A stretch of 39,893 nucleotides of DNA from Acidobacteriota bacterium. GTDB taxonomy: Bacteria; Acidobacteriota; Polarisedimenticolia; J045. Numbering within the stretch: position 1 is the first letter of the stretch; every line of letters begins with the position of its first letter. The stretch spans positions 1-39,893 of the forward strand of contig JAUZRX010000053.1 of NCBI GenBank assembly GCA_030949985.1, written 5' to 3'. The notes below the pieces were generated by a model that saw nothing but the letters and a program-made list of their open reading frames with translations, searched no databases and was not told where the DNA came from. Position numbers and translations under genes: made by a program. Below, piece after piece: positions 15,194-27,605 of this stretch.

Positions 15194-16624
15194 TCAGTAA
15201 GAAAGCCCGATCAGGAGAGTGACTATCGAAATGTTGAGGGCATGCAGGCTGTTGACATAGTATTCGGAACGGAATCCCAACTCTGCGGTCGCCCTGTCGC
15301 TGTGCTGATAGCGGAAAGCCATGGCGTAGTCGGTTCCCGTGGAGACCGTACTCTGCTGGATCCGGCCTTCCGTGGTCGCCGAAGGCGACACGGCAAACAT
15401 GTTGTCGTCCACCCTGTCGTAGTCGTTCCTCCAGAACTCGGCCCCGGCGACTACCGTCCACTTCTCGCCGATCCGGGCACGCACGGAGGTGGGGATGGAC
15501 TGCCTTTCGCCTTCCACCTTGGAGCGGGTGGAAAAACCACCGATTTCGGGCGGTGCGTAGAATGTATCGGTCACATCGCCGGCGAAGTCGGCGTCGATCT
15601 CGTAACACTCCCACGTGAAGCCGACGCCGAAGTCGACGCCGTCGGCGAGCTGCTTTTGCCACCGCATCCCGAGCATGGCGTTCCACGCGGAAAAGTCGTC
15701 CCGTGTCACCGTCTCGTCGTAATCGTTCCCCCCGCTCTGTTCCATGTAGATCATCGGGCGGCTCAGATCGCCGGACAGCGAAGAATAGGAGCCCAGAAAC
15801 TCGACTGCGCTGGGGTGGTCACCACCCTGGTACCAGTTGAGCCGGACGTCGCCACCCCAGCTGAAGTTGTCGAAATCCCATATTGTGCGGCTGAAGAAAC
15901 TGGAGCTGGCGGCGACGCTTTCGGAGAACATGTCGCCGGAAGCGACGTGTCCGCTCACAGTCCAGGAGAAGTCTTCCCGGCTGTGATCTTGATAGGCGCC
16001 GGAGAAAGTGAAGTAGTTCGTCTCGAACTGGTTCGCGGCCGAACTCGTCGAGGAGCTCAAAGCACTGCTGTCACGACTGAGGTACCCCCCTGTCACGCCC
16101 CAGTTGGAGTTTTCGCCCTGCTGCCCCCAGCCCAGCAGCAGCTCGGTCGCGCTGGCCTCGCTATGGTTGCGACTTGAAAAAGAACTGCCGAAATCGACGT
16201 CAGAGTCGGAGCTGAAGTCTTGCCAGGCCAGATAGCCCGCCAGGTTCCCGTTCTCCATCCCGTAGATGCCACCCGCCTGGAAGGAATTGACATCCGCCCG
16301 GTTGGCGAGACCTGTGAAGAGGATCCGCGGCGTGCCGTCCCCTCCGCTGCTGGGCCGACCCAGCACAGGAGTCAACTCGTCGCGCTGGATATCCGCCAGC
16401 CGGGTCGGATCGTTGATCTGATCGATGGTCGAAGAGAACAGACCGAAGCTCGCTTCGTTGAACACGGACCGCGCCTCGATGAGATGGCCGGCCTGCATGG
16501 AGTTGTACAGGATCACCGCGCTCGAAGCATCCGCCGCCACGACCAGGCTGCTCCCGCAAACCAAGACTGTCACCCCGACCGCCGCAGCGAGTCGGGCCCA
16601 TTCCGCCCTTCTTTTTCCGAACAT
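15194..16624 (-). CDS. Outer-membrane beta-barrel protein, tandem paralogue A
   Basis: 476 residues; ATG at 16624 behind AGGAGG. After a signal peptide (ending VVAADA) comes a conserved block, ARSVFNEASFGLFSSTIDQI and LADIQRDELTPVLGRPSSGG. Alternating hydrophobic/aromatic beta-strands run from about residue 105 to the end (NWGVTGGYLS, FTFSGAYQDH, WGGDVRLNWYQ). The protein ends VTLLIGLSY, with the final aromatic residue typical of barrels inserted by BamA. It is clearly homologous along its whole length to the next protein (17245-18669). I do not recognise the family or a substrate. The barrel is probably large, judged by strand count. Confidence 0.78.
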   Translation of the reverse strand: MFGKRRAEWARLAAAVGVTVLVCGSSLVVAADASSAVILYNSMQAGHLIEARSVFNEASFGLFSSTIDQINDPTRLADIQRDELTPVLGRPSSGGDGTPRILFTGLANRADVNSFQAGGIYGMENGNLAGYLAWQDFSSDSDVDFGSSFSSRNHSEASATELLLGWGQQGENSNWGVTGGYLSRDSSALSSSTSSAANQFETNYFTFSGAYQDHSREDFSWTVSGHVASGDMFSESVAASSSFFSRTIWDFDNFSWGGDVRLNWYQGGDHPSAVEFLGSYSSLSGDLSRPMIYMEQSGGNDYDETVTRDDFSAWNAMLGMRWQKQLADGVDFGVGFTWECYEIDADFAGDVTDTFYAPPEIGGFSTRSKVEGERQSIPTSVRARIGEKWTVVAGAEFWRNDYDRVDDNMFAVSPSATTEGRIQQSTVSTGTDYAMAFRYQHSDRATAELGFRSEYYVNSLHALNISIVTLLIGLSY

Positions 16625-17244
16625 GACTCCATTCCTCCTAGGACAGGACACCGCAAGACATCCTGCAATCCGCGAGATTCGCGGGTATTGACCGGCAACA
16701 AACTCGACCGGAGTGCAAAAAATAACCGCGCCAGGCAGTTTGTCAAGAACTCAATCGGTCGCCCGGGGAATTAGGCAATCACTCGGAAAGGACTTCGAAT
16801 CGTTACGAACACCCGGAAAGCGCAAACGGGGCGAAAATCCGGGGGGCGGGGAGAGGCGGGAGAGGCGAGGGCACCCACCCGCCGCCCGCCATCGCCTTTC
16901 ATTTCACCGCAACCGGGGCTCGAGAGGGGCGCCATGCGCCTGCCTCGCCGGCAAACAGGGGGAGGGAACAGGACCGGAGGAAGATCGTCGCCCGGCGCAA
17001 ACGCGCCCCCCTGCCCCGGTTTGCGGCCATCCTCGCCCCCCGACAGCGCCGGGGCCAAGGCCTTCGGGGCGGGATGCGATCAGCAGCCGCGGGCCCGGAA
17101 CAGGTCGTTCCCGCCGACCGGAGCCTGAGAGACGCCGCCCGGCCCCAGGTCGCCGAGCCCCTCCGCACCTGTCGAAGCCGAGGGGACGGCCCGAAAGCCG
17201 TCCCCCGAAGAGTCCGCCTCAACCGACTGGAAAAGGCTTTCCTA
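16625..17244. other. Intergenic region, 620 bases, between outer-membrane paralogues
   Basis: The right end near 17182-17205 holds the hairpin of the upstream paralogue. A TTGACA lies on the minus strand at 16746-16741, followed by an AT-rich stretch (about 16716-16728) that stands out in this GC-rich DNA, so the promoter of the 15194-16624 gene is probably here. The central part (about 16790-17150) is GC-rich, shows no convincing coding frame and no recognised element. Confidence 0.4.
17182..17205 (-). terminator. GC hairpin after outer-membrane gene B
   Basis: Perfect 9-bp arms (17182-17190 and 17197-17205) with a 6-base loop, about 40 bases past the stop of the 17245-18669 gene. The surrounding 3' sequence resembles that after paralogue A, so the hairpin was duplicated with the gene. 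No T-tract follows. Confidence 0.45.
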
Positions 17245-18669
17245 TCAGTAAGAAACCCCGACCAGGAACGTGACTTCCGACGTTTGAAGGGTGTGCCTGG
17301 CGCCGACATAGGAGCCGGAATGGAACCCCAGCTCAGCGGTCACGCTCTCGCCGTGCTGATAGCGCAGCGCCATGGCGTAGTCGGTTCCCGTGTCGCTCCG
17401 ATGGGACCGGAGCCGGTCTTCCGAAACCGGCACCGAGGGGTACAGGTCGTAGGTCTTTATATCGACCTCGCTTCTCCAGAACTCGGCTCCGACGACCACG
17501 GTCCACTTCTCGCCGATCCCGGCGCGTACGGAGGTGGGAATGGAAAGGGTATCCCCTTCCATACTGGCCTGGGTGACAAAACGACCCAGGGCGGCCGGCG
17601 TGTAGGCTGTATCGGTCACGTTGCCGGCGAAGTCGGCGTCGATCTCGTAGCTATCCCACATGAAGCCGGCGCCGAAGTCGACGCCGCCGGCAAGCTGTTT
17701 TTGCCACCGCAACCCGAGCGTGGCGTTCGACGCCGAGAAATCGTCTCTCGTGGCGGTCTCGTCATACTGGACCCCGTTGGACCGCATGAAGATCGTCGGG
17801 TGGTTCAGGTCACCCGTCATGGAGTCGTAGGAGCCCACCACTTCGAACGCACCAGGATGGTCACCCTCCTGGTACCAGTTGAGCCGGACACCGCCGCCCC
17901 ACGTGAAAGTATCGAAATCCCACCGCAAACGGTTGAAAACCAGACTGTTCCGCCAGCCTCCGTCGTCGATCATGTCGCCGGAAGCGACGTTTCCGCTCAC
18001 GGTCCAGGTGAAGTCTTCACGAGCATGGTTCTGAAAAGCACCGGAGACGGCGTAACGGCTCGCCTCGGACTGATCCCAGAACACGGAGGACGTGTCGGAG
18101 ATTGTGTTCCCCCTGTCGCCGCTGAGATAGCTCCCTGTCACGCCCCAGTTGGAGGTTTCACCCCGCTGTCCCCAGGCCAGCATCAACTCGGTCGCGCTGG
18201 CGTCGGCCTGGTTGCCATTGAAGTACGAGCTTCCGGAGTCATGGCGGCTGTCACTGTTCGATTCGCGCCAAGCCAGGTAGCCCGCCAGGTTTCCGCTCTC
18301 CATCCCGTAGATGCCGCCCACCTGGAAGGCATGGACTTCCGCCCGGTTGGCGAGACCCGTGAAGAGGATCCGCGGCGTGCCGTCCCCTCCGCTGCCGGGC
18401 CGACCCAGCACAGGAGTCGGTTCGTCGCGCTGGATATCCGCCAGCCGGGTCGGATCGTTGATCTGATCGATGGTCGTGGAGAACAGGCCGAAGCTGGCCT
18501 CGTTGACAACGGACCGTGCCTCGATGAGGTGGCTGGCTTGCAGCTGCCTGTAGCGGGAGATGACGTCTCCGGCCTCCGCCGCCACGACCAGGCTGCTTCC
18601 AAAACCCAGAACTGCGACCCCGACCCCTACGGCGAGGCGGAAATGCTTCGCCTTGTTTTCTCTAAGCAT
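17245..18669 (-). CDS. Outer-membrane beta-barrel protein, tandem paralogue B
   Basis: 474 residues; ATG at 18669 behind GGGAGG. It has the same layout as paralogue A: signal peptide (ending LVVAAEA), the ARSVVNEASFGLFSTTIDQI and RDEPTPVLGRPGSGG block, then beta-strands to a terminal VTFLVGVSY. Some blocks are identical in the two (NDPTRLADIQRDE, DGTPRILFTGLANRA), while surface-loop regions differ strongly, as expected for barrels under diversifying pressure. The family is unknown. A TTGACA at 18770-18765 and an AT-rich run lie about 100 bases upstream. Confidence 0.78.
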   Translation of the reverse strand: MLRENKAKHFRLAVGVGVAVLGFGSSLVVAAEAGDVISRYRQLQASHLIEARSVVNEASFGLFSTTIDQINDPTRLADIQRDEPTPVLGRPGSGGDGTPRILFTGLANRAEVHAFQVGGIYGMESGNLAGYLAWRESNSDSRHDSGSSYFNGNQADASATELMLAWGQRGETSNWGVTGSYLSGDRGNTISDTSSVFWDQSEASRYAVSGAFQNHAREDFTWTVSGNVASGDMIDDGGWRNSLVFNRLRWDFDTFTWGGGVRLNWYQEGDHPGAFEVVGSYDSMTGDLNHPTIFMRSNGVQYDETATRDDFSASNATLGLRWQKQLAGGVDFGAGFMWDSYEIDADFAGNVTDTAYTPAALGRFVTQASMEGDTLSIPTSVRAGIGEKWTVVVGAEFWRSEVDIKTYDLYPSVPVSEDRLRSHRSDTGTDYAMALRYQHGESVTAELGFHSGSYVGARHTLQTSEVTFLVGVSY

Positions 18670-18979
18670 CCTCGATTTCCTCCCTGTTGAAAAACACTCT
18701 CCCCGCCACCGGCGCCTGCTCCGGAACCCGCGGGGAAGCCAAGTCGACCCGATAGTAAAAATTTTGTCAAGGGCAGAGCCCCGGCCCCCAGGCAGGATGA
18801 ATCAGACCCTTCCGGTCGCTTTCGAACCTTCCCGAAACCCTCGTAAAGCCCAAGCCAGACGCAAGCCGAGCCGGACTACGGCGGGTATCCATTCCCGTTG
18901 CCCCCAGTCGCCTTTCGCCGTACCTTGCGCTCACTTGGGACCGCCATCCGGCCCCAAGCCCCAGCAAACGGGAGGGTTG
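18670..18979. promoter_or_regulatory. Divergent control region of outer-membrane gene B and the E1/E2-like operon
   Basis: 310 bases between divergent genes. The minus-strand TTGACA (18770-18765) and AT-rich run 18752-18766 probably belong to the outer-membrane gene. A similar TTGACA plus a CGGTCGA-like motif occurs upstream of paralogue A. The open frame from an ATG at 18797 to 18976 has third-codon-position composition unlike the real genes here, so I treat it as leader sequence. I see no clear plus-strand promoter. Confidence 0.4.
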
Positions 18980-19903
18980 TTGGACCGGCGGGAGATCGCC
19001 GCCACGGAGGGGAGCCGTGGTGGCGCAACGGGGCATTGCGGGGAGGCGTTCTACCGGGGGATCTACCTCATCCGGCGGTTCGAGGAGCTTCTGCTCGACC
19101 TCTTCGCCGCCGGCAAACTCAGCGGAACGACCCACACCTGCCTGGGCCAGGAGGCCAACGCGGTAGCCCTCGCGGCCCACCTCCAGGAACGGGACGTGGT
19201 CGTCAGCAATCACCGCTGCCATGGACACTACCTGGCCCGGACGGGGGACGTGGAAGGATTGCTGGCGGAGATCCGGGGCCGGCGGGACGGCCTCTGCTCG
19301 GGCCGGGGTGGCAGCCAGCACCTCTGCGCACCCAACTTCTATACCAACGGCATCCAGGGCGGCATCGTCCCCCTGGCCACGGGAATGGCGCTGGCGGAAA
19401 AGCGCCGCGGATCGGGCGCCATCGTCACCGTCTTCATCGGCGACGGCACCCTGGGCCAGGGCGTGGTCTACGAGTCCCTCAACATCGCCGCCCTCTGGGC
19501 GGCACCGCTGCTGGTGGTCGTCGAGGCCAACGGCTGGGCCCAATCCACTCCCACCCACCGGGCCCTGGCAGGCTCGATAGAGGGCCGCATGGAAGCCTTC
19601 GGCATCCCCTGCGACAGCGTCGAGGGGAACGACGTCTTCACCCTGGACGCCGCGGCCTCCCAAGCCGTCGCCCGCGTTCGGGAGACCTCCCGACCCTGCG
19701 GCCTGCTGATCCACACCCAGCGCCTCGGTCCCCACAGCAAGGGCGACGACCCCCGCAGCCGTGCAGAGATCGACGCCCTGCGGAAGCGGGACCCCCTGCC
19801 CCGACTCGCCGCCACCCTCGATCCCCGGCGGCGCCAGGCCATCGAGGCGGACTGCGAGCAGCGGCTGGCGACCGCCCTTGCGGCGACCGGAGGCGCGCCA
19901 TGA
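18980..19903 (+). CDS. 2-oxoacid dehydrogenase E1 component, alpha subunit
   Basis: 307 residues. A TTG at 18980 (GGAGG four bases upstream; a second TTG at 18977) is the best start, because codon use becomes coding-like only there. An ATG at 18797 would add 61 low-quality residues. The sequence follows the PDH/BCDH E1-alpha plan: FYRGIYLIRRFEELLLDLF, GTTHTCLGQEA, the NGIQGGIVPLATGMAL stretch, and the thiamin diphosphate motif GDGTLGQG...ANGWAQS. It decarboxylates a 2-oxoacid and, with the beta subunit, acylates a lipoyl arm. The stop overlaps the next start (ATGA). The partner is an E2-like protein with an atypical catalytic domain, so the product may not be acyl-CoA. Confidence 0.88.
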   Translation: MDRREIAATEGSRGGATGHCGEAFYRGIYLIRRFEELLLDLFAAGKLSGTTHTCLGQEANAVALAAHLQERDVVVSNHRCHGHYLARTGDVEGLLAEIRGRRDGLCSGRGGSQHLCAPNFYTNGIQGGIVPLATGMALAEKRRGSGAIVTVFIGDGTLGQGVVYESLNIAALWAAPLLVVVEANGWAQSTPTHRALAGSIEGRMEAFGIPCDSVEGNDVFTLDAAASQAVARVRETSRPCGLLIHTQRLGPHSKGDDPRSRAEIDALRKRDPLPRLAATLDPRRRQAIEADCEQRLATALAATGGAP

Positions 19904-20508
19904 CCGTGCGATGCGCGCAGGTGCTCAACGAGACCCTGGCCGAGGCCCTCGAGCGCTGGGAAGACGTCCTGCTGCTCGGCGAGGACCTGGCCGATCCCTA
20001 TGGCGGCGCTTTTCGCGTCACCCGGGGGCTCAGCACCCGCTGGCCGGAACGGGTGCTCTCCACCCCGATCAGCGAAGCGGCCCTGTTCGGGGTCAGCGCG
20101 GGGCTGGCGCTCCGGGGCCGGCGACCGGTACTCGAGATCATGTTCGGCGATTTCATCACCCTGGGACTCGACCAGGTGATCAACCACATCGCCAAGTTCC
20201 GGGAGATGTACGACGAGCAGGTGCGCGTCCCCCTGGTGGTGCGCACCCCCATGGGTGGGCGCCGGGGCTACGGGCCGACTCACAGCCAGTCCCTCGAAAA
20301 GCTGCTGGTGGGCATCCCGGGCCTGACGGTGGTGGCGGCCAGCGAATACCATGACCTCCGGGACATGCTGCTGGCGGCCATCGCCTGCGACGACCCGGTG
20401 TTCTTCATCGAGAACAAGCTGCTCTACGGCCGCAGTCCCCAGCGCGGCGCCGAGGGTCGACTCGGCCCCTTCACCTGGGAAGAGAGCCCGGCCCCTTTCC
20501 CGCCGTGA
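19900..20508 (+). CDS. 2-oxoacid dehydrogenase E1 beta, N-terminal (pyrimidine-binding) half
   Basis: 202 residues, against about 330 in the family. It covers the thiamin pyrimidine-binding domain: LLLGEDLADPYGGAFRVTRG, ISEAALFGVSAGLALRG, EIMFGDFITLGLDQVINHIAK and RTPMGGRRGYGPTHSQS. It stops at the linker before the C-terminal transketolase domain, which is encoded by the next ORF in another frame with a GTGA overlap. The split falls exactly between domains. It could be a true two-gene subunit or one gene with a one-base frame error. Confidence 0.85.
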   Translation: MTVRCAQVLNETLAEALERWEDVLLLGEDLADPYGGAFRVTRGLSTRWPERVLSTPISEAALFGVSAGLALRGRRPVLEIMFGDFITLGLDQVINHIAKFREMYDEQVRVPLVVRTPMGGRRGYGPTHSQSLEKLLVGIPGLTVVAASEYHDLRDMLLAAIACDDPVFFIENKLLYGRSPQRGAEGRLGPFTWEESPAPFPP

Positions 20509-20912
20509 CCCTGCGTGCCGCCGGGCGCGGCGCAGTGACGCTGGCCACCTGGGGCGGCATGGCGCACCTCGCCCACCAGGCGGCCCGGGAAGCGGCCATC
20601 GAGTACGAGAAGATGGTGGAGGTGGTCGTCCTCTCCCGCCTCGCTCCCCTCGATCCAGCCCCTCTGCTCGCTTCGGTGCGCCGCACCGGAGCGCTGGTGG
20701 TCGCCGAGGAGGGCACCCTCAGCGCCGGTGTGGGAGCAGAAATCGTGGCCCGGGTCCAGGAGGAGGCCTTCGCCGCACTGCGGGGCCCCGTAAAGCGTGT
20801 GGCGGCCCGAGACCGGGTGATTCCCGCCGCCCGGCACCTGGAAGACGCCGTGCTGCCCCAGGTCGAAGAGATCCTCCACGCCTGCCTGGCAGCCGCCGGG
20901 GCGGAGAGCTAG
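20505..20912 (+). CDS. 2-oxoacid dehydrogenase E1 beta, C-terminal transketolase domain
   Basis: 135 residues beginning with GTG that overlaps the upstream TGA. It has the E1-beta C-domain pattern: GAVTLATWGGMAHLAHQAA, VVVLSRLAPLDPAPLLASVRRTG, ALVVAEEGTLSAGVGAEI, then RVAARDRVIPAARHLEDAVLP. This domain normally helps the E1 dimer and contacts E2. Together with the previous ORF it totals 337 residues, the usual E1-beta size. The next gene starts two bases after its stop. Confidence 0.82.
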   Translation: MTLRAAGRGAVTLATWGGMAHLAHQAAREAAIEYEKMVEVVVLSRLAPLDPAPLLASVRRTGALVVAEEGTLSAGVGAEIVARVQEEAFAALRGPVKRVAARDRVIPAARHLEDAVLPQVEEILHACLAAAGAES

Positions 20913-20914
20913 TC

Positions 20915-22480
20915 ATGCAACGCCTCTTCCTCGAGCGCGAGGACGCCAACTCCGAAAGCGCCACCCTGGTGGCCTGGCTGGTGGCGGACGGCGAAACGGT
21001 GCAGCGCCACCAGCGGATCTGCGTGCTGGAAACGACCAAGGCCACCATCGACATGGTCGCCCCGCAGCCCGGTATCCTCCGCCACCGCTACCCGGAGGGC
21101 AGCGAGATCGCCTTCGGCACCACCCTGGGATGGATCCTCGAAGCCGGTGAAGACTCGCCCGACCCGGAGGACACCCGGGAAACCGGGGGGGCCGCCGAAA
21201 CCGCCGGCCTGCAGATCAGCCGTGCGGCGGCAAGGTTGATCGAAGAGGCGGGCATCGATCCCACCGCGATTCGTGAACACGGCTTCATCACCGAAAAAGA
21301 GGTCCGCCGGCACATGGCGCGCTCCCGCCGGCAGGCCGCCCCGCCCCACCCGGCCCTCGCCGACATCGACCTCGAGGCGGTTTCTCTGCCACCGGGCCTG
21401 GGACAGGACGATCACGGCCGGCTCGACCCCGTCTTTCTCTCCCGCCTGCGGGAGGAGGGCGAGAGATTCCGCCGCCTGCATCCCGGAGAGAAGCTCCAGG
21501 CCTACCGCAAGCACGGCGCCGCCATCGCCGAGGATGTCCACCTCGGCCCGGGCAGCCTGCTGATCGCCCCCCGCCTGGTCATCGGCCCCGGCAGCCGCAT
21601 CGGCGCCGAGACCACGGCCGACTGCGCCGAGCAGCTTGCCATCGGCGCCCTCAGTCACTTCGGCCCGGGGCTGACCGTCAGGGCCCGCTGCGCGGTTTTC
21701 GGGGACAACGTCCACGCCGGCCGGGGGATCACCATCGGGGGCGGCGGCCATCGGGATCCCTGGGCGGTCTTCGCCGCCGGAAACCTGACCTTCATCGGTG
21801 ACGAGGTCTTCATCAACGTTTGCCGTGCCGTGCTGCTCGGGCGCGAGGTCTTTCTCACCATGAGATCGATCATCGTCACCCACAACATCGGCCATTCCCC
21901 CCTGGAGGGCTTCGAGAACCGCTTTGCCCCGGTGATCCTCGAAGATCGTTGCCAGGTCGGCATGGGCTGCACCCTCTATGCCGGGGTTCGCATCGGCAGG
22001 GAAGCGATCGTCGGCTCGGGCTCCTACGTTCTGGCCCCGGTGCCGGCCGGCAAGCTGGCCATGGGGGTTCCCGCGCGGGTCGTCGCCGAGGCCCGCCGCC
22101 CGGTCAGCGCCGCCCGCCGGAGAGAACTGGCCCGCGAGATGGTGGAAGAGTTCGGACGTCTGCTCGCAGCCCGGGGAGAACGGGTGGAGAGGATCGACGG
22201 CGGAGGAGGCCTCCGCATCCGGCGCGAGGGACGGCTCCATGAACTGCTCTACGCCGATCGCGCAGACCAGCTCCCGCCGGGAGACCCCGCCAGCGACAAG
22301 GTCTACGTGGTCCTCGAAGGCTCGGACGCGAGTCCCGGCGACGGCCTGCTCCTCGAGTTGCTGCCGCGAAGGGCCCGTGGGCAGGCCACGGCCTTCGGTG
22401 AAAGTGTCCGGGAATACTTCCGCAAACGGGGGATCCGCTTCGAACCGGGCCCCTGGCGCTATTCGGGAGGGTGGCTCTGA
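20915..22480 (+). CDS. E2-like protein: lipoyl domain + E3-binding domain + left-handed beta-helix acyltransferase
   Basis: 521 residues; ATG with GGAGAG six bases upstream. Residues about 1-78 are a lipoyl domain, with the lipoylation lysine K42 in the hairpin ETTKATID. Residues about 99-134 are a peripheral-subunit-binding domain (ISRAAARLIEEAGIDPTAI...FITEKEVRRHM). The usual E2 catalytic domain with its HxxxDG motif is absent. Instead residues about 190-390 form a hexapeptide-repeat left-handed beta-helix acyltransferase (GAAIAEDVHLGPGS, IGPGSRIGAE, VTHNIGHSPL, VGMGCTLYAGVRIGREAIVGSGS, AMGVPARVV), with His in VTHNIGH a plausible catalytic base. The last ~125 residues are unassigned. The protein is probably the acyl acceptor and donor of this operon's E1. 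No E3 gene is in the operon. Confidence 0.85.
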   Translation: MQRLFLEREDANSESATLVAWLVADGETVQRHQRICVLETTKATIDMVAPQPGILRHRYPEGSEIAFGTTLGWILEAGEDSPDPEDTRETGGAAETAGLQISRAAARLIEEAGIDPTAIREHGFITEKEVRRHMARSRRQAAPPHPALADIDLEAVSLPPGLGQDDHGRLDPVFLSRLREEGERFRRLHPGEKLQAYRKHGAAIAEDVHLGPGSLLIAPRLVIGPGSRIGAETTADCAEQLAIGALSHFGPGLTVRARCAVFGDNVHAGRGITIGGGGHRDPWAVFAAGNLTFIGDEVFINVCRAVLLGREVFLTMRSIIVTHNIGHSPLEGFENRFAPVILEDRCQVGMGCTLYAGVRIGREAIVGSGSYVLAPVPAGKLAMGVPARVVAEARRPVSAARRRELAREMVEEFGRLLAARGERVERIDGGGGLRIRREGRLHELLYADRADQLPPGDPASDKVYVVLEGSDASPGDGLLLELLPRRARGQATAFGESVREYFRKRGIRFEPGPWRYSGGWL

Positions 22481-23331
22481 TGCACGACGCGAAAGGTAGA
22501 CCGCCCCAGCGCGGCAGGGAGATGAGCCTCGACAGCTACGAGCGGCTGCTTACCCGGGCCCGCCGCATGGGCTATGCCTTCCCCATGGTCTCCGAACTCC
22601 GCGATCGTCTGCCCCCGCGGCCGAGAATCCTGCTCCTGCGCCACGATATCGACGTCAGCCCCGTCTGTGCCCTCGAGATGGCGCGACTCGAGCACGCTCT
22701 GGGAGTCCGTTCCTCGTACTTCGTGCTGCTGCACTCTCCGTTCTACCACCCCGGCGCCCCGCCGCACATCGACGCCCTTCGGAAGATCGTCGACCTGGGC
22801 TTCGAAGTGGGGCTGCACTACGACGTGGAGTTCTTTCGCAGGCGGGGGATCGAACCGCTCGAGGGCATCGGCCGGGATACCCGCGCCCTCGAGGCCCTGC
22901 TCGGCATCCGTATCCGCTCGGTCTCCCAGCACCGGCCGGCTTCCAGCGAAGTGCTGCGGGGCATCAGCCGACGTCTCGTCGACGCCTACAGCCCCCACCT
23001 GACCCGGAACCTGCACTACATCTCCGACAGCGGCTTTCGCTGGCGCGGCGCCAGCCTCGAGCAGGAGCTCGGCGTGCGTCAACGCATCCACGCGCTGATC
23101 CACCCCGCCACCTGGGCCTGGCCACTGGACATGGAAGAGACCTACCGGCGCTGCGCCGACCAGGCCGGCCGCCGGGTCCGCGCCGCCTTCGACGACTTCA
23201 TCGCCTCCACCCACCAGTACCTCGCTCGTCGCCCGCAACTGGATCGGCTCCGACTCGAGCGAGAGCTGGGCCCCGGGACCCAGCCGCGCTCACACCGGCG
23301 GGACGCCCCCAGACCTCCCGCCGGCCCCTGA
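22480..23331 (+). CDS. Polysaccharide-deacetylase-like protein
   Basis: 283 residues. The ATG at 22480 shares one base with the upstream stop and has GGGAGGG nearby; a later ATG at 22522 is possible. The NodB-like fold is indicated by RHDIDVSP (HDID 55-58, metal-binding Asp/His motif), the GVRSSYFVLLHSPFYH block and EVGLHYD (H113, D115). Such proteins remove acetyl groups from sugars, or sometimes act as unassigned C-N or C-O hydrolases, in glycan gene clusters. The C-terminal part is Arg-rich and has no clear signal peptide, so it may act in the cytoplasm. Its tight coupling to an acyltransferase-bearing E2 suggests a shared sugar substrate. Confidence 0.75.
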   Translation: MHDAKGRPPQRGREMSLDSYERLLTRARRMGYAFPMVSELRDRLPPRPRILLLRHDIDVSPVCALEMARLEHALGVRSSYFVLLHSPFYHPGAPPHIDALRKIVDLGFEVGLHYDVEFFRRRGIEPLEGIGRDTRALEALLGIRIRSVSQHRPASSEVLRGISRRLVDAYSPHLTRNLHYISDSGFRWRGASLEQELGVRQRIHALIHPATWAWPLDMEETYRRCADQAGRRVRAAFDDFIASTHQYLARRPQLDRLRLERELGPGTQPRSHRRDAPRPPAGP

Positions 23332-23419: not shown

Positions 23420-25063
23420 GTGACGAGGATCGCCGTGCTCCTGCTCATCTTGTTTTCCGGCATCGCCCACGTCGAGGCGGGGCCCGTGATCCACCTGTTG
23501 CCCGTGCGGGCGGCCCATCCCCTCCCGGCGGAACTGCGCAGCTGGAGCCGGCGCCTGACCAGCGCATTCTGGCAACCGGCCCGGCGGCAGGCCCTGGCGG
23601 AGCGTTGGCCGGGGGCGCAAGTGATCCTCGGGCCTCCCGCCGACGCCTCGGCAGACGAGGGCGACACCCACTACGAGTTGCGCGGCCGCCTGGAGGTGGA
23701 GCCCGTCCGGCTGAGAACTCCCGTCCTGCACCTGAGCGCTCCCCGGGCAGGCAGGTGGCTCTCGCGCCGCATCGAAGTCGTCGAGGCCCGGGGGTTGCTG
23801 CGCTACACCTTCACCCTGGTCGCCACGGCCAGCGGAGCCGAGTACGCCACGGGAACCTGGACGGTGGCGTGGATCGCCCCCCCGCCACCGGACGATCGCT
23901 ATCTGCCCCCACCCCACTCCCCGGTAGCCTGGCGGAGCACCGTCCTCGAAGCTCCCGACAACCTGTTCCACGGCGAATGGAGCCCCGAACCGGCGGAAGG
24001 CCCCTGGCCTCCCCCGGGTCTCGAGAACCTGGTGCAACGCCTCCGGCGACGCCGAACGATCACTTTCGGACACCTGCTCGAGGACTCGATGCCCCTGCGG
24101 CTGGCGGGACTCGCCGACCTCGATCACCAGCCGCTGCCGGCGGGCATGCCGCTGACGGTCCGCACCCGCCACGGCACCTTCGCGACCGCCCGGGGCCCGC
24201 GGCGCAAGCTCGTCCTCCGGGCCGGCCCCGACCCGGTCCTCCTCGAGGACTATCGGCCACCCGCCTGCTCGACGGCGGTGGTGGACGTGTTCAGCATCAC
24301 GCCGGCAGCCCCGGCGGCGGATGCCCCACCGCTGGAAATCCTGCGCGTCAACACGAGCTGCCTCGGATCCTGGCTCGAGATCTCGATCGACTCCCGGCGC
24401 AGCCGGGCCGATCCGACAGCCGCACCGAGAGCCGATTGCCGTCTCCGTCGCTCGGTCGCGTTCGACGAGACCCGACGCGCCCGGCTGATCCTCGAGCTGG
24501 GCCCGAACCCTGAGGCCGAGGTCGTGGATTCGGGCCACGTCTTCCGCTCGTTTCCGGTCACCCGCGGTTGGTGGGTCGGGGCCGAGTTCTCCCGTCGCCG
24601 ATCCTCCTCGCTGACCGCCTTCTGTCCTGATCGGCCCCTGCAGCGCAAAACCTGCGCCCAGCGACAGCGGGGCCGGATCGCGGACCGCCCGCCGGCAGCC
24701 GATCCCTTCGCCCCGCGCCTGTTGGTGGTCACCACCGGCGACGCCGACGACCGTATCCTGGAAATCCGGCCGCCCCGCTGGCGCACTCGTCTCGGGTGGA
24801 CGGGAACGGCGACCTGCCAGGCGGCGAGCGACGCCCCCTCGACCCGGTCTTCCCCGCGAAGCGGCGATCTCGTCACGAGCGCTGAGTACCTGGTCGCCGG
24901 GCCCGACAGCGCTTTCCGTGCGACGCTCCCCCGGACAGCACAGTGCTTTCGCGCAGCCCCCTCCAAGAGCCTCGGCCGGATCTACGGCGGCTGCGAGGCC
25001 CACCGTCGGCGCGAGAACACCGAGATCCGCACGCGCTTTTCCTGGACTCTCCATCTCCACTGA
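23420..25063 (+). CDS. Exported protein of unknown function
   Basis: 547 residues from a GTG with AAGAAGG ten bases upstream. A signal peptide (hydrophobic 5-15, cleavage near HVEA) leads into a protein rich in Arg, Pro and Trp with no domain I recognise. Visible features are a run of short beta-like segments (YELRGRLEVEPVRL, LRYTFTLVATASGAEYATGTWTVAW), Cys residues spread over the C-terminal half (about eight), and the final FSWTLHLH, a strand-like end. It lies 88 bases after the E1/E2-like operon on the same strand, behind a terminator-like hairpin, so it may be separately transcribed. It could be envelope or glycan associated, but I cannot assign a function. Confidence 0.65.
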   Translation: MTRIAVLLLILFSGIAHVEAGPVIHLLPVRAAHPLPAELRSWSRRLTSAFWQPARRQALAERWPGAQVILGPPADASADEGDTHYELRGRLEVEPVRLRTPVLHLSAPRAGRWLSRRIEVVEARGLLRYTFTLVATASGAEYATGTWTVAWIAPPPPDDRYLPPPHSPVAWRSTVLEAPDNLFHGEWSPEPAEGPWPPPGLENLVQRLRRRRTITFGHLLEDSMPLRLAGLADLDHQPLPAGMPLTVRTRHGTFATARGPRRKLVLRAGPDPVLLEDYRPPACSTAVVDVFSITPAAPAADAPPLEILRVNTSCLGSWLEISIDSRRSRADPTAAPRADCRLRRSVAFDETRRARLILELGPNPEAEVVDSGHVFRSFPVTRGWWVGAEFSRRRSSSLTAFCPDRPLQRKTCAQRQRGRIADRPPAADPFAPRLLVVTTGDADDRILEIRPPRWRTRLGWTGTATCQAASDAPSTRSSPRSGDLVTSAEYLVAGPDSAFRATLPRTAQCFRAAPSKSLGRIYGGCEAHRRRENTEIRTRFSWTLHLH

Positions 25064-25430
25064 CCCGGCGCGGCAGCGGCACCGTCCTCAGGGGCACCGT
25101 CCTCAGGATCCCCAGGCATCGTTCTCACCGGCGGCATCGTTCCCACCGATTTCCGGCCTTTTTCCACTTCTCCTTTCCGTGGTTTCGTCGTACCTGCTAG
25201 CTGCGGAGGATCCAGCAAGGGGGGGGCCGGGCCGTGCGTTCGCGCCGTTCGTTCGCACGGTCGTGGCCCCTGTGCCGGCGAGAAGGCAAGGGAGGCTTTC
25301 GCCGGAGTCATTCTCATTTTGTCGATTTCAGTGCATCGGGTTCATTCCCGCCCGTGGTCTTTTCAGCCTTCTGGATGCATGCCGGCGACGTGCAGCAACC
25401 GCGAGGCGGGATATGGGAGGAGAGGAAGTC
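25064..25430. other. Intergenic region with four degenerate 13-base direct repeats
   Basis: 367 bases. Four copies of GGCAYCGTYCYCA lie at 25078-25090, 25093-25105, 25115-25127 and 25133-25145: two identical, two diverged. A short AT-rich, pyrimidine-rich stretch follows (about 25145-25195). The end of the region supplies the Shine-Dalgarno of the next gene (GGAGGAGAGGAA). No ORF with real coding character is seen. Confidence 0.45.
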
Positions 25431-27605
25431 ATGAAGTTTTTCCGCGTTTCGAGCGCCGCCAGAATGCTGGCGCTGGCCGGAGTCACCATCCTCGCGATGG
25501 TCGGCGCACCGGCCCAAACCCCCTTTGACACGCCTCTGGGGGAATTCGAGCGAATCGGTGGGGGCGAGGTCCGCATCGCCATCGCCGGCGTGGGCACGGG
25601 GGAAGGAGCCCATACCTTCGACATCGACGTACCGGGCGATCCTCTGGCGGCCTGGCTCTACTGGTCCGGCGAAACCACCGAAGCCGGCAATCCGGATCCG
25701 GAAATAACCCTCAGCGGCGGCGCACTCGCCGCGCCCCTCGCCCTGGCGGGCATCGAGATCGGGCGCCGCTACGTGGTCCCGCCGGACGAGGCGGCCACCA
25801 AGGGCGGCGAGGTCGTCTCACGGGCCGACGTGCCGCTCTACGCCCTGGCCGCGGGTATCAACACTTTCTCGATCACGAATTTCAACGACGTCGTGAACAA
25901 CGCCCGCCCCTACCGTGTACAGCACGGCGTGGTGATGGTGGTGATGTACCAGGTGGTTCCCGGCGAAGGGGATTGGGAAGCCATCGGCCTCCAGGGGGCC
26001 GATGTGGCCAACTACGACCGCTGGGCCAGAACTTTCGACTACTCCGAACAGGCCAACAGCGACGTCTTCTGCTTCGATTTCCAGGCTCTCGGCTGCCAGG
26101 TGCAGGGAACCATCAGCCTCGGCATCGGGGGCGTCCTCGAAGATGTTCACCAGCTGGCAGGAAGCACCCGCGTCGCCTACGCCTCCCCGGAACGCACCTG
26201 GTTCGCCACGGGCTCGGGCCCCAGGCCGACGAGCCTGGTCGACCTCTACCAGGTGCTCGAAGAGAACAAGATCATCGACGCCGATTTCGGCTTCAAGGGC
26301 GAGAAGCTCGGTGTTTTCTCCACCCTCGTCGATCTGCCCCAGGGAGCCACCTGGGCCTGCCTGCAGCACCAGATGCTGGAGAAGAAATCCACCGACGAGT
26401 TCCCCCAGAACTTCACCACCTTCTTCGCCGGCCTCCACATGAATCGCTCCTGCAAACCGCCGGGGCAGTGCGCCCTCGACCTGTCGATGGAGATCACCCC
26501 TCCGGACGTCATCGTCCCGGAAACCGAGTGCGACGGCGCCCTGACCCAGGTTGCCTTCGAATACACCGGGCAGGGCTGTGAGGCCAGCACACACCAGCAG
26601 GCTCACGACGCCCATTGCACCGGCGCCGCGGCCTTCGAGGAGAACGTGCGGATCGAGATGACCCGCGCCGACGGCACCCTGATCGGCAGCGTGGAAGGGG
26701 TGAGGCTCGGCGACGTGGTCACCTTCGACGCCCGCCGGGCGGGCCTCGACCATCTCGGCCGCGTCGTCCATCTCGAGATCTTCGACAGTCTCGGGGCATC
26801 CCTCGAGACCAACAAGATTCGCCTCAAGTGCGAAAAGAAATTCAACATCGGCGATCAGTTCGGCAGCCTGCTCGCACTGGCCTACGACACCACCCGGGGC
26901 ACCGCGCGGGATCTGCGCACGGCGACCACCATCAACTACACGGTGACCAACAACGGCGACGGTGACACCGGAGAGCTGACGGTCAACGACGATCTGCTCG
27001 GCGAAGTGGGTTACGTAGCCAACCTCGCACCCGGTGAATCGATCACCTTCACCGCCGATACCACGACCTGGAAACAAACCCGTTTCGACGCCGTGGCCAC
27101 CGGCGAGTGGAACTGTCAGGCATCCGTCGCAGCCGCTCAGACCTTTTCCGAGCCGCCGGATGACGGTGGCCCCGAGTGCGAAGGCGGCATCAAGTCGATC
27201 ACTCTGACCTACACCGGAGAGAGCTGCGAGGCTTCGACCAACGATCAGAGCGGCAAGATGCGCTGCAAGGGCGATGCGCTGATGACCGATCCGGTGAAGA
27301 TCAAGGTCCGCAACAAGAAGGGCCGCAAGCTCTTCGTCTTCGACGATGTCCGGATCGGGGACACCCTGACCCTGGGCTACGGCGACCTCGCCCCGGCACC
27401 GAAAGAATGCGGCAAGCGGGCCAAGCGCAAGCGGGAGCGCAAGCACAAGCGTAAGCTGCCCAACAACCTGGTCTTCCAGGTCATCGACGCGACCACCGGC
27501 GAGCGCCTGCAGGGGATCAAGATCCACACCTCCTGCGAGGAGCCCTTGCTCCAGGGCGACCATTTCGGATCTCTGCAGCTGCAGTCCATCGAATCCCGCC
27601 GCTGA
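25431..27605 (+). CDS. Large exported protein with two Cys-containing repeats
   Basis: 724 residues; ATG at 25431 with AGGAGAGGAA just upstream (the frame before it is shadow). After a signal peptide (VTILAMVGAPAQ) an acidic beta-rich head (GAHTFDIDVPGDPLAAWLYWSGE, FSITNFNDVVNNARPYRVQHG) is followed by two copies of a module: copy 1 about 26535-26880, copy 2 about 27186-27590. Both share Y-TG-x-x-CEAST, a second Cys, R-x-GD, and a final GD-x-FGSL. I associate this kind of module with unassigned exported proteins (DUF7467-like, unverified). Copy 2 has a unique highly basic stretch (KRAKRKRERKHKRK). The function is unknown. A strong terminator hairpin follows. Confidence 0.78.
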   Translation: MKFFRVSSAARMLALAGVTILAMVGAPAQTPFDTPLGEFERIGGGEVRIAIAGVGTGEGAHTFDIDVPGDPLAAWLYWSGETTEAGNPDPEITLSGGALAAPLALAGIEIGRRYVVPPDEAATKGGEVVSRADVPLYALAAGINTFSITNFNDVVNNARPYRVQHGVVMVVMYQVVPGEGDWEAIGLQGADVANYDRWARTFDYSEQANSDVFCFDFQALGCQVQGTISLGIGGVLEDVHQLAGSTRVAYASPERTWFATGSGPRPTSLVDLYQVLEENKIIDADFGFKGEKLGVFSTLVDLPQGATWACLQHQMLEKKSTDEFPQNFTTFFAGLHMNRSCKPPGQCALDLSMEITPPDVIVPETECDGALTQVAFEYTGQGCEASTHQQAHDAHCTGAAAFEENVRIEMTRADGTLIGSVEGVRLGDVVTFDARRAGLDHLGRVVHLEIFDSLGASLETNKIRLKCEKKFNIGDQFGSLLALAYDTTRGTARDLRTATTINYTVTNNGDGDTGELTVNDDLLGEVGYVANLAPGESITFTADTTTWKQTRFDAVATGEWNCQASVAAAQTFSEPPDDGGPECEGGIKSITLTYTGESCEASTNDQSGKMRCKGDALMTDPVKIKVRNKKGRKLFVFDDVRIGDTLTLGYGDLAPAPKECGKRAKRKRERKHKRKLPNNLVFQVIDATTGERLQGIKIHTSCEEPLLQGDHFGSLQLQSIESRR

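Follow-up and report, generated by a model that had tools for sequence, protein, structure and literature searches.

In 2-oxoacid dehydrogenase complexes, lipoyl arms carry acyl groups to CoA. Acyltransferases of the left-handed beta-helix type draw on other carriers as well: the WcaF, LacA, PglD and LpxA families use acyl-CoA or acyl-ACP, and LpxA and LpxD in particular are fed by a protein-bound acyl arm (acyl-ACP). PDH-like E1 alpha/beta pairs are proposed to serve in the formation of two-carbon branched sugars in the avilamycin (AviB1/AviB2) and paulomycin (Pau11/Pau12) clusters (PMC4425429).

The window (the whole stretch of 39,893 nucleotides that we analysed) encodes a protein that touches each of these systems, an E2-like lipoyl-PSBD-beta-helix acyltransferase that we call E2LbH (Table 1). 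As in the 2-oxoacid dehydrogenase complexes (PDH, BCKDH, acetoin dehydrogenase), a lipoyl-PSBD gene directly follows the E1 alpha/beta genes, but its product lacks PF00198 and HxxxDG, has a beta-helix and an extra C-terminal domain, and is accompanied by an E1-beta from a separate clade. With the hexapeptide O-acetyltransferases (WcaF, LacA, maltose O-acetyltransferase) it shares a beta-helix and a catalytic-type His, whereas the fused lipoyl carrier, the longer helix and the extra C-terminal domain set it apart, and it scores far under the curated cut-off of the WcaF subfamily (57 of 192 bits). It also falls short of the NeuD/PglD model (TIGR03570, 51.5 of 160.8 bits) and has no PglD_N domain, unlike a sister fusion at locus L047, which passes that cut-off, has that domain and belongs with the NeuD/PglD/VioB/PerB N-acetyltransferases while carrying the lipoyl-PSBD module of E2LbH. 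The resemblance to LpxA and LpxD is one of working, a beta-helix enzyme with a protein-bound acyl arm, but the carrier here is lipoyl, is fused in the same chain and, as we propose, is charged by E1. Finally, the locus would resemble AviB1/AviB2 and Pau11/Pau12 in using a PDH-like E1 alpha/beta for sugar chemistry outside central metabolism (PMC4425429), and differs from the AviB1/AviB2-type pair in having a lipoyl partner, which 13/13 E2LbH loci encode and which also adjoins E1 at the lipoyl-NeuD loci.

Our preferred reading, to which we assign a probability of roughly 60%, is that these genes encode a dedicated 2-oxoacid dehydrogenase variant, in which E1 would charge the lipoyl arm and the fused beta-helix would acylate a sugar without CoA. 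Transfer from lipoate to a sugar had been proposed in the initial annotation, made from the letters of the window. Comparative support for it is strong, because the same module is found on a second sugar-acyltransferase family whose E1 belongs to the same clade; that the acceptor is a sugar and that CoA is dispensable we infer. In the open-licence literature, a scope that makes a negative result weak evidence, we found neither a published description of a lipoyl plus hexapeptide, sugar acyltransferase or polysaccharide system nor a described precedent for lipoate as acyl donor in surface-sugar biosynthesis.

Table 1. Positions of the operon genes and E2LbH domains in the window, and of related genes at other loci
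Feature	Position	Strand	Remarks
E1-alpha (ThDP 2-oxoacid dehydrogenase/decarboxylase alpha)	18980..19903	+	start uncertain: TTG at 18977 or 18980
E1-beta, N-terminal piece	19900..20508	+	Transket_pyr 8.9e-32 (Pfam); stop arises from a one-base frame break
E1-beta, C-terminal piece	20505..20912	+	Transketolase_C 1.3e-23 (Pfam); other frame, GTG overlaps TGA
E2-like lipoyl-PSBD-beta-helix acyltransferase (E2LbH)	20915..22480	+	521 aa; ORF coordinates exact
Lipoyl domain	20915..21150	+	residues about 1-78; K42 in ETTKAT; Pfam, PDB profile, Foldseek
Peripheral-subunit-binding-like domain	21206..21340	+	residues about 98-142; family profile, SucB model
Left-handed beta-helix (hexapeptide) acyltransferase	21512..22099	+	residues about 200-395; His323 in T-H-N
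Conserved C-terminal domain	22106..22477	+	residues 398-521, ending RKRGIRFEPGPWRY; follows beta-helix
Overlapping downstream gene	22471..23331	+	'deacetylase-like' by eye only (RHDID)
Lipoyl-NeuD fusion of L047	2444-3568	-	Biotin_lipoyl, PglD_N, Hexapep; downstream of E1-E2LbH operon
Lipoyl + 2-oxoacid_dh proteins of G772	L119:13718-15133, 16531-17865	-	one HxxxDG kept (HQVADG), the other lost (ARIVSG)

Domain organization of E2LbH

E2LbH runs from a lipoyl domain through a divergent E1/E3-binding domain and a left-handed beta-helix acyltransferase to a conserved C-terminal domain. PF00198 (2-oxoacid_dh) matched 0/5 members of the family at E <= 1 in Pfam, and the HxxxDG motif was found in 0/13 full-length sequences, which rules out a normal E2 catalytic domain elsewhere in the chain. 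Compared with an HxxxDG-type E2, the protein has the lipoyl domain with its Lys and a PSBD, albeit a divergent one, and no CAT-type domain. The initial annotation had described just such an E2-like protein, with a lipoyl domain (K42) and an E3/E1-binding domain in the usual order and a beta-helix acyltransferase standing in the CAT position, and this description holds in the relatives. These, at 43-70% identity, keep the domain order, K42, T322-H323-N324 and adjacency to E1; a chance fusion or mis-assembly is ruled out by the conservation of the full-length protein in 13 copies from two phyla.

The N-terminal domain matches Biotin_lipoyl at residues 16-71 (5.7e-8, Pfam), in the PDB the profile of residues 10-110 matches mainly lipoyl domains of E2 and E3BP, and lipoyl domains are among the top Foldseek matches of the full-length model. 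K42 is invariant in 13/13 sequences. Its motif, ETTKA, and PDB matches that are mostly E2 lipoyl domains make a biotinyl group at K42 less likely than a lipoyl one. The profile searches, suggested in the initial annotation as a check, matched the lipoyl and hexapeptide domains directly and recovered the PSBD only with a family profile: Pfam E3_binding is weak on it (E = 0.03 at best, in 3/5 members), whereas a family profile of residues about 97-142, run against 737 ORFs, ranked canonical E2 proteins directly behind the family members, with matches that coincide with the Pfam placement of PF02817 or are a few residues off. NCBIfam SucB/PDH E2 models cover residues 15-148. By these comparisons the region of about residues 98-142 qualifies as a divergent PSBD-like domain.

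For the acyltransferase, Hexapep (PF00132) matches residues 340-372 (6.4e-10, 38.8 bits against a cut-off of 27, Pfam), and its repeats are present in 5/5 members tested. NCBIfam models of WcaF- and NeuD-type acetyltransferases fall on the second half of the protein, the family profile matches hexapeptide acetyltransferases of the PDB over its rear part, and beta strands are predicted in the beta-helix region. T322, H323 and N324 are invariant (13/13). H323 aligns with the His of hexapeptide acetyltransferase 3ect in the profile alignment, and in that with galactoside O-acetyltransferase, where query positions 24-98 correspond to chain positions 111-185 with no net gap, it lies at chain position 115, the His of which we take to be the catalytic residue of that enzyme. 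On the strength of these alignments, H323 qualifies as a putative catalytic-type His of the LacA/maltose acetyltransferase type.

Since beta-helix proteins are trimeric and trimers are also the building blocks of E2 cores, the beta-helix could be a non-catalytic scaffold that takes the place of the E2 core. We regard this as highly improbable, as T-H-N and the stretches GGGGHRDPW and HSxLEGFENRFAP are invariant, or nearly so, among the 13 sequences, beyond what a scaffold would need. Structure prediction, also suggested in the initial annotation, was of partial help: confidence in the models, predicted from 5 sequences, is low (pLDDT 54.8 and 59.3), and the full-length model backs the lipoyl domain but not the beta-helix fold, with Foldseek searches of the beta-helix part of these models giving no supported fold match.

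The C-terminal domain, an addition to the initial account of the protein, is kept in the 13 relatives and also in lipoyl-free relatives, and has no family match in Pfam or the PDB. The lipoyl-free proteins, which consist of beta-helix and C-terminal domain, adjoin LuxC, LuxE and AMP-ligase genes (L049:91-4270, L050:4201-8684) or a glycosyltransferase gene (L051), which suggests that the beta-helix family also goes with other acyl-supply systems. The first arrangement hints at a possible aldehyde or acyl-protein route to this acyltransferase family.

The E1 genes and conservation of the operon

E1-alpha of the window matches E1_dh (7.5e-51, Pfam), scores 230.8 bits on TIGR03182, under the cut-off of 393.85, keeps the ThDP motif GDG...N plus the HSKGDD loop, and is 57-78% identical to the E1-alpha encoded at the same place in relatives. 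E1-beta is broken in the window near 20487-20495, where one base fewer is present than in locus L001 and the two ORFs overlap at GTGA. This may reflect an assembly error, a recent frameshift or a decaying gene; a split E1-beta as a conserved feature is ruled out, as the gene is continuous in L001 and in the Thermoleophilia loci.

A genome scan found full-length relatives of E2LbH in one Acidobacteria and three Actinobacteria/Thermoleophilia assemblies (the records of L002 and L003 are the source of the class name Thermoleophilia). Our genome surveys, which span two phyla, placed it in 11/349 Thermoleophilia genomes sampled and, among 294 Acidobacteriota genomes, in the genus of the window only; the plasmid collection gave no full-length match. 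E1-alpha, E1-beta and E2LbH are consecutive in 13/13 loci to the extent that the contigs cover them. The direct linkage to E1 alpha/beta noted in the initial annotation is thus a general property of the family, and the survey of gene order that it called for finds the order kept both in the window genus and in the 11 Thermoleophilia genomes. Canonical E2s are present in 8/8 genomes tested, and in the genome of the window an E3-type reductase follows SucB, which suggests that the system would be separate from central metabolism and could borrow its E3.

A second lipoyl-acyltransferase fusion

Lipoyl-PSBD-PglD_N-hexapeptide fusions occur in 12 cases in the 349 Thermoleophilia genomes and in 0/297 Acidobacteriota genomes. 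The fusion of L047, on which TIGR03570 was scored among the 12, lies above the cut-off of that model (167.3 vs 160.8 bits), and its best PDB relatives are perosamine N-acetyltransferase, a pilin glycosylation protein, PglD and VioB. It has its lipoyl-PSBD module in common with E2LbH (hhalign probability 99.2). Judged by its sequence relationships, lipoyl-NeuD is a second, independent fusion, to a different sugar-acyltransferase family. E1 genes adjoin it in 9/12 cases; of the other three, one is at a contig edge, and G072 and G230 have an E1-E2LbH operon elsewhere. A Sulfotransfer_3-type gene adjoins all 12 fusions (L047, L070, L071, L095, L109-L116). In L112 and L115, a second sulfotransferase-like gene is found between E1-beta and the fusion.

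This second fusion bears on two other explanations. E2LbH might be an atypical E2 that forms acyl-CoA with a beta-helix in place of the CAT-type active site, as the layout of the operon, like that of a normal E1-E1-E2 operon, would suggest. We consider this quite improbable: the nearest beta-helix families acylate sugars, the second fusion retains an N-terminal domain of the PglD nucleotide-sugar type, and the same genomes already have canonical E2s. Alternatively, acyl-CoA could be the direct donor to the beta-helix, with the lipoyl-PSBD part and E1 supplying acyl-CoA locally or serving a separate step. The E2LbH beta-helix could indeed use acyl-CoA like its relatives, as its characterised close relatives use acyl-CoA or acyl-ACP and the lipoyl-free proteins beside AMP-ligase, LuxC and LuxE indicate that the domain can also draw on different sources of acyl groups. 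However, the operon has no CAT-type domain to turn a lipoyl thioester into acyl-CoA, and the fusion of two sugar-acyltransferase families to lipoyl-PSBD, both with E1, is hard to explain unless the carrier feeds the active site; we therefore hold an acyl-CoA donor to be possible but unlikely.

E1-beta phylogeny and a related glycan region

We built a tree of 32 E1-beta sequences, comparing those of both fusion types and of the Acidobacteriota genome G772 with 14 canonical E1-beta from the same genome set. The E1-beta of both fusion types and of G772 fall in one clade with 100/100 support, apart from the 14 canonical sequences, and within it the two partner types are intermixed. The G772 sequence is on a long branch and its placement is uncertain. 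This is best read as one E1 lineage with swappable lipoyl-acyltransferase partners, as far as the sequences can tell.

PDH-like E1 pairs are known from branched-sugar clusters (PMC4425429) and some of our loci have sugar-related neighbours, so E1 might instead form a carbon-carbon bond, in the manner of AviB1/AviB2 or Pau11/Pau12, with the lipoyl-beta-helix protein acylating or otherwise modifying the product separately. We give this explanation little credence: descriptions of the known clusters mention E1 alpha/beta alone, while in our loci E1 is constantly partnered by a lipoyl-PSBD protein, the lipoyl Lys of which is invariant.

G772 also encodes a lipoyl-beta-helix protein that shares the C-terminal domain of E2LbH (L117:8688-10166). 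Its gene is separated by about 28 kb from a gene for a fused E1 alpha-beta (L119:17855-19894, minus strand) and by about 23-28 kb from those of the two lipoyl proteins with 2-oxoacid_dh-type domains listed in Table 1. The stretch, of about 30 kb, includes NeuB and an Epimerase_2 (NeuC-type) gene, and a PIG-L deacetylase gene adjoins the beta-helix gene. By eye, the polysaccharide region of G772 also holds a possible ACP gene (DSLG motif) beside a possible FkbH-like gene (L120:6097-8095, minus strand), neither of which has a Pfam match.

A proposed route from 2-oxo acid to sugar

Based on these comparisons we can outline how the preferred system, acyl transfer from lipoate to a sugar, might work. 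The ThDP-dependent E1 alpha/beta would decarboxylate a 2-oxo acid and reductively acylate the lipoyl arm at K42, and the acylated arm would swing to the fused beta-helix trimer. There, a sugar, whether free, nucleotide-linked or part of a glycan, would have a hydroxyl or amine group activated by His323 and would be acylated from the lipoyl thioester with no need for CoA. Re-oxidation of the dihydrolipoyl group would then fall to a general E3 docked on the PSBD-like domain. At the sister loci, the same E1 lineage would serve a NeuD/PglD-type enzyme bearing the same lipoyl-PSBD module. Our default guess for the acyl group is acetyl from pyruvate, while an E1 set aside for this system could point to a rarer 2-oxo acid. 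The broader statement, that lipoyl carriers charged by a ThDP E1 lineage pass acyl groups directly to exchangeable sugar acyltransferases of the beta-helix type along a CoA-independent route, is one that we favour by a narrow balance. Against the scheme stand the weak PSBD score in Pfam, the low confidence of the structure models and the lack of any obvious polysaccharide cluster around the E2LbH loci, which in Thermoleophilia constantly adjoin an alkaline-phosphatase-superfamily gene instead.

If the scheme is right, a 2-oxoacid dehydrogenase complex has been re-plumbed at least twice to hand acyl groups straight to sugars, and carbohydrate acylation can draw on 2-oxo acids via lipoate. This would be a CoA-free acylation route and a new job for lipoate, and would allow the modular making of unusual acyl-sugars. 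Whether acyl-lipoyl domains serve acyltransferases besides E2 cores is now a question that can be tested with defined proteins.

Neighbouring genes

The gene that overlaps the end of E2LbH was taken in the initial annotation for a deacetylase-like partner in support of a sugar role. We do not retain that argument: the gene has a counterpart in L001 (77%) but in none of the Thermoleophilia operon loci, and searches with its product, in Pfam up to E <= 5 and in the PDB up to 0.1, matched nothing, deacetylase (NodB-type) profiles included. A deacetylase as core partner of the system is therefore ruled out, the gene standing beside the operon in the window genus only.

In 9/9 Thermoleophilia loci with enough upstream sequence (L002, L003, L004, L041-L045, L048), E1-alpha is preceded by a gene of the alkaline-phosphatase superfamily ('sulfatase'). 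The nucleophile position is Thr (WTAPS or WTCPS) in 8/8 examined, for which reason the product is probably not a formylglycine sulfatase.

In the window, two tandem paralogous ORFs of 485 and 474 aa (15194-16651 and 17245-18669, minus strand) lie directly upstream of the E1 genes and encode probable secreted or outer-membrane proteins. Further downstream, an 895-aa ORF (24918-27605, plus strand) carries DUF7467 near its C-terminus (Pfam, 4.7e-41), and a similar gene is found at the same place in L001.
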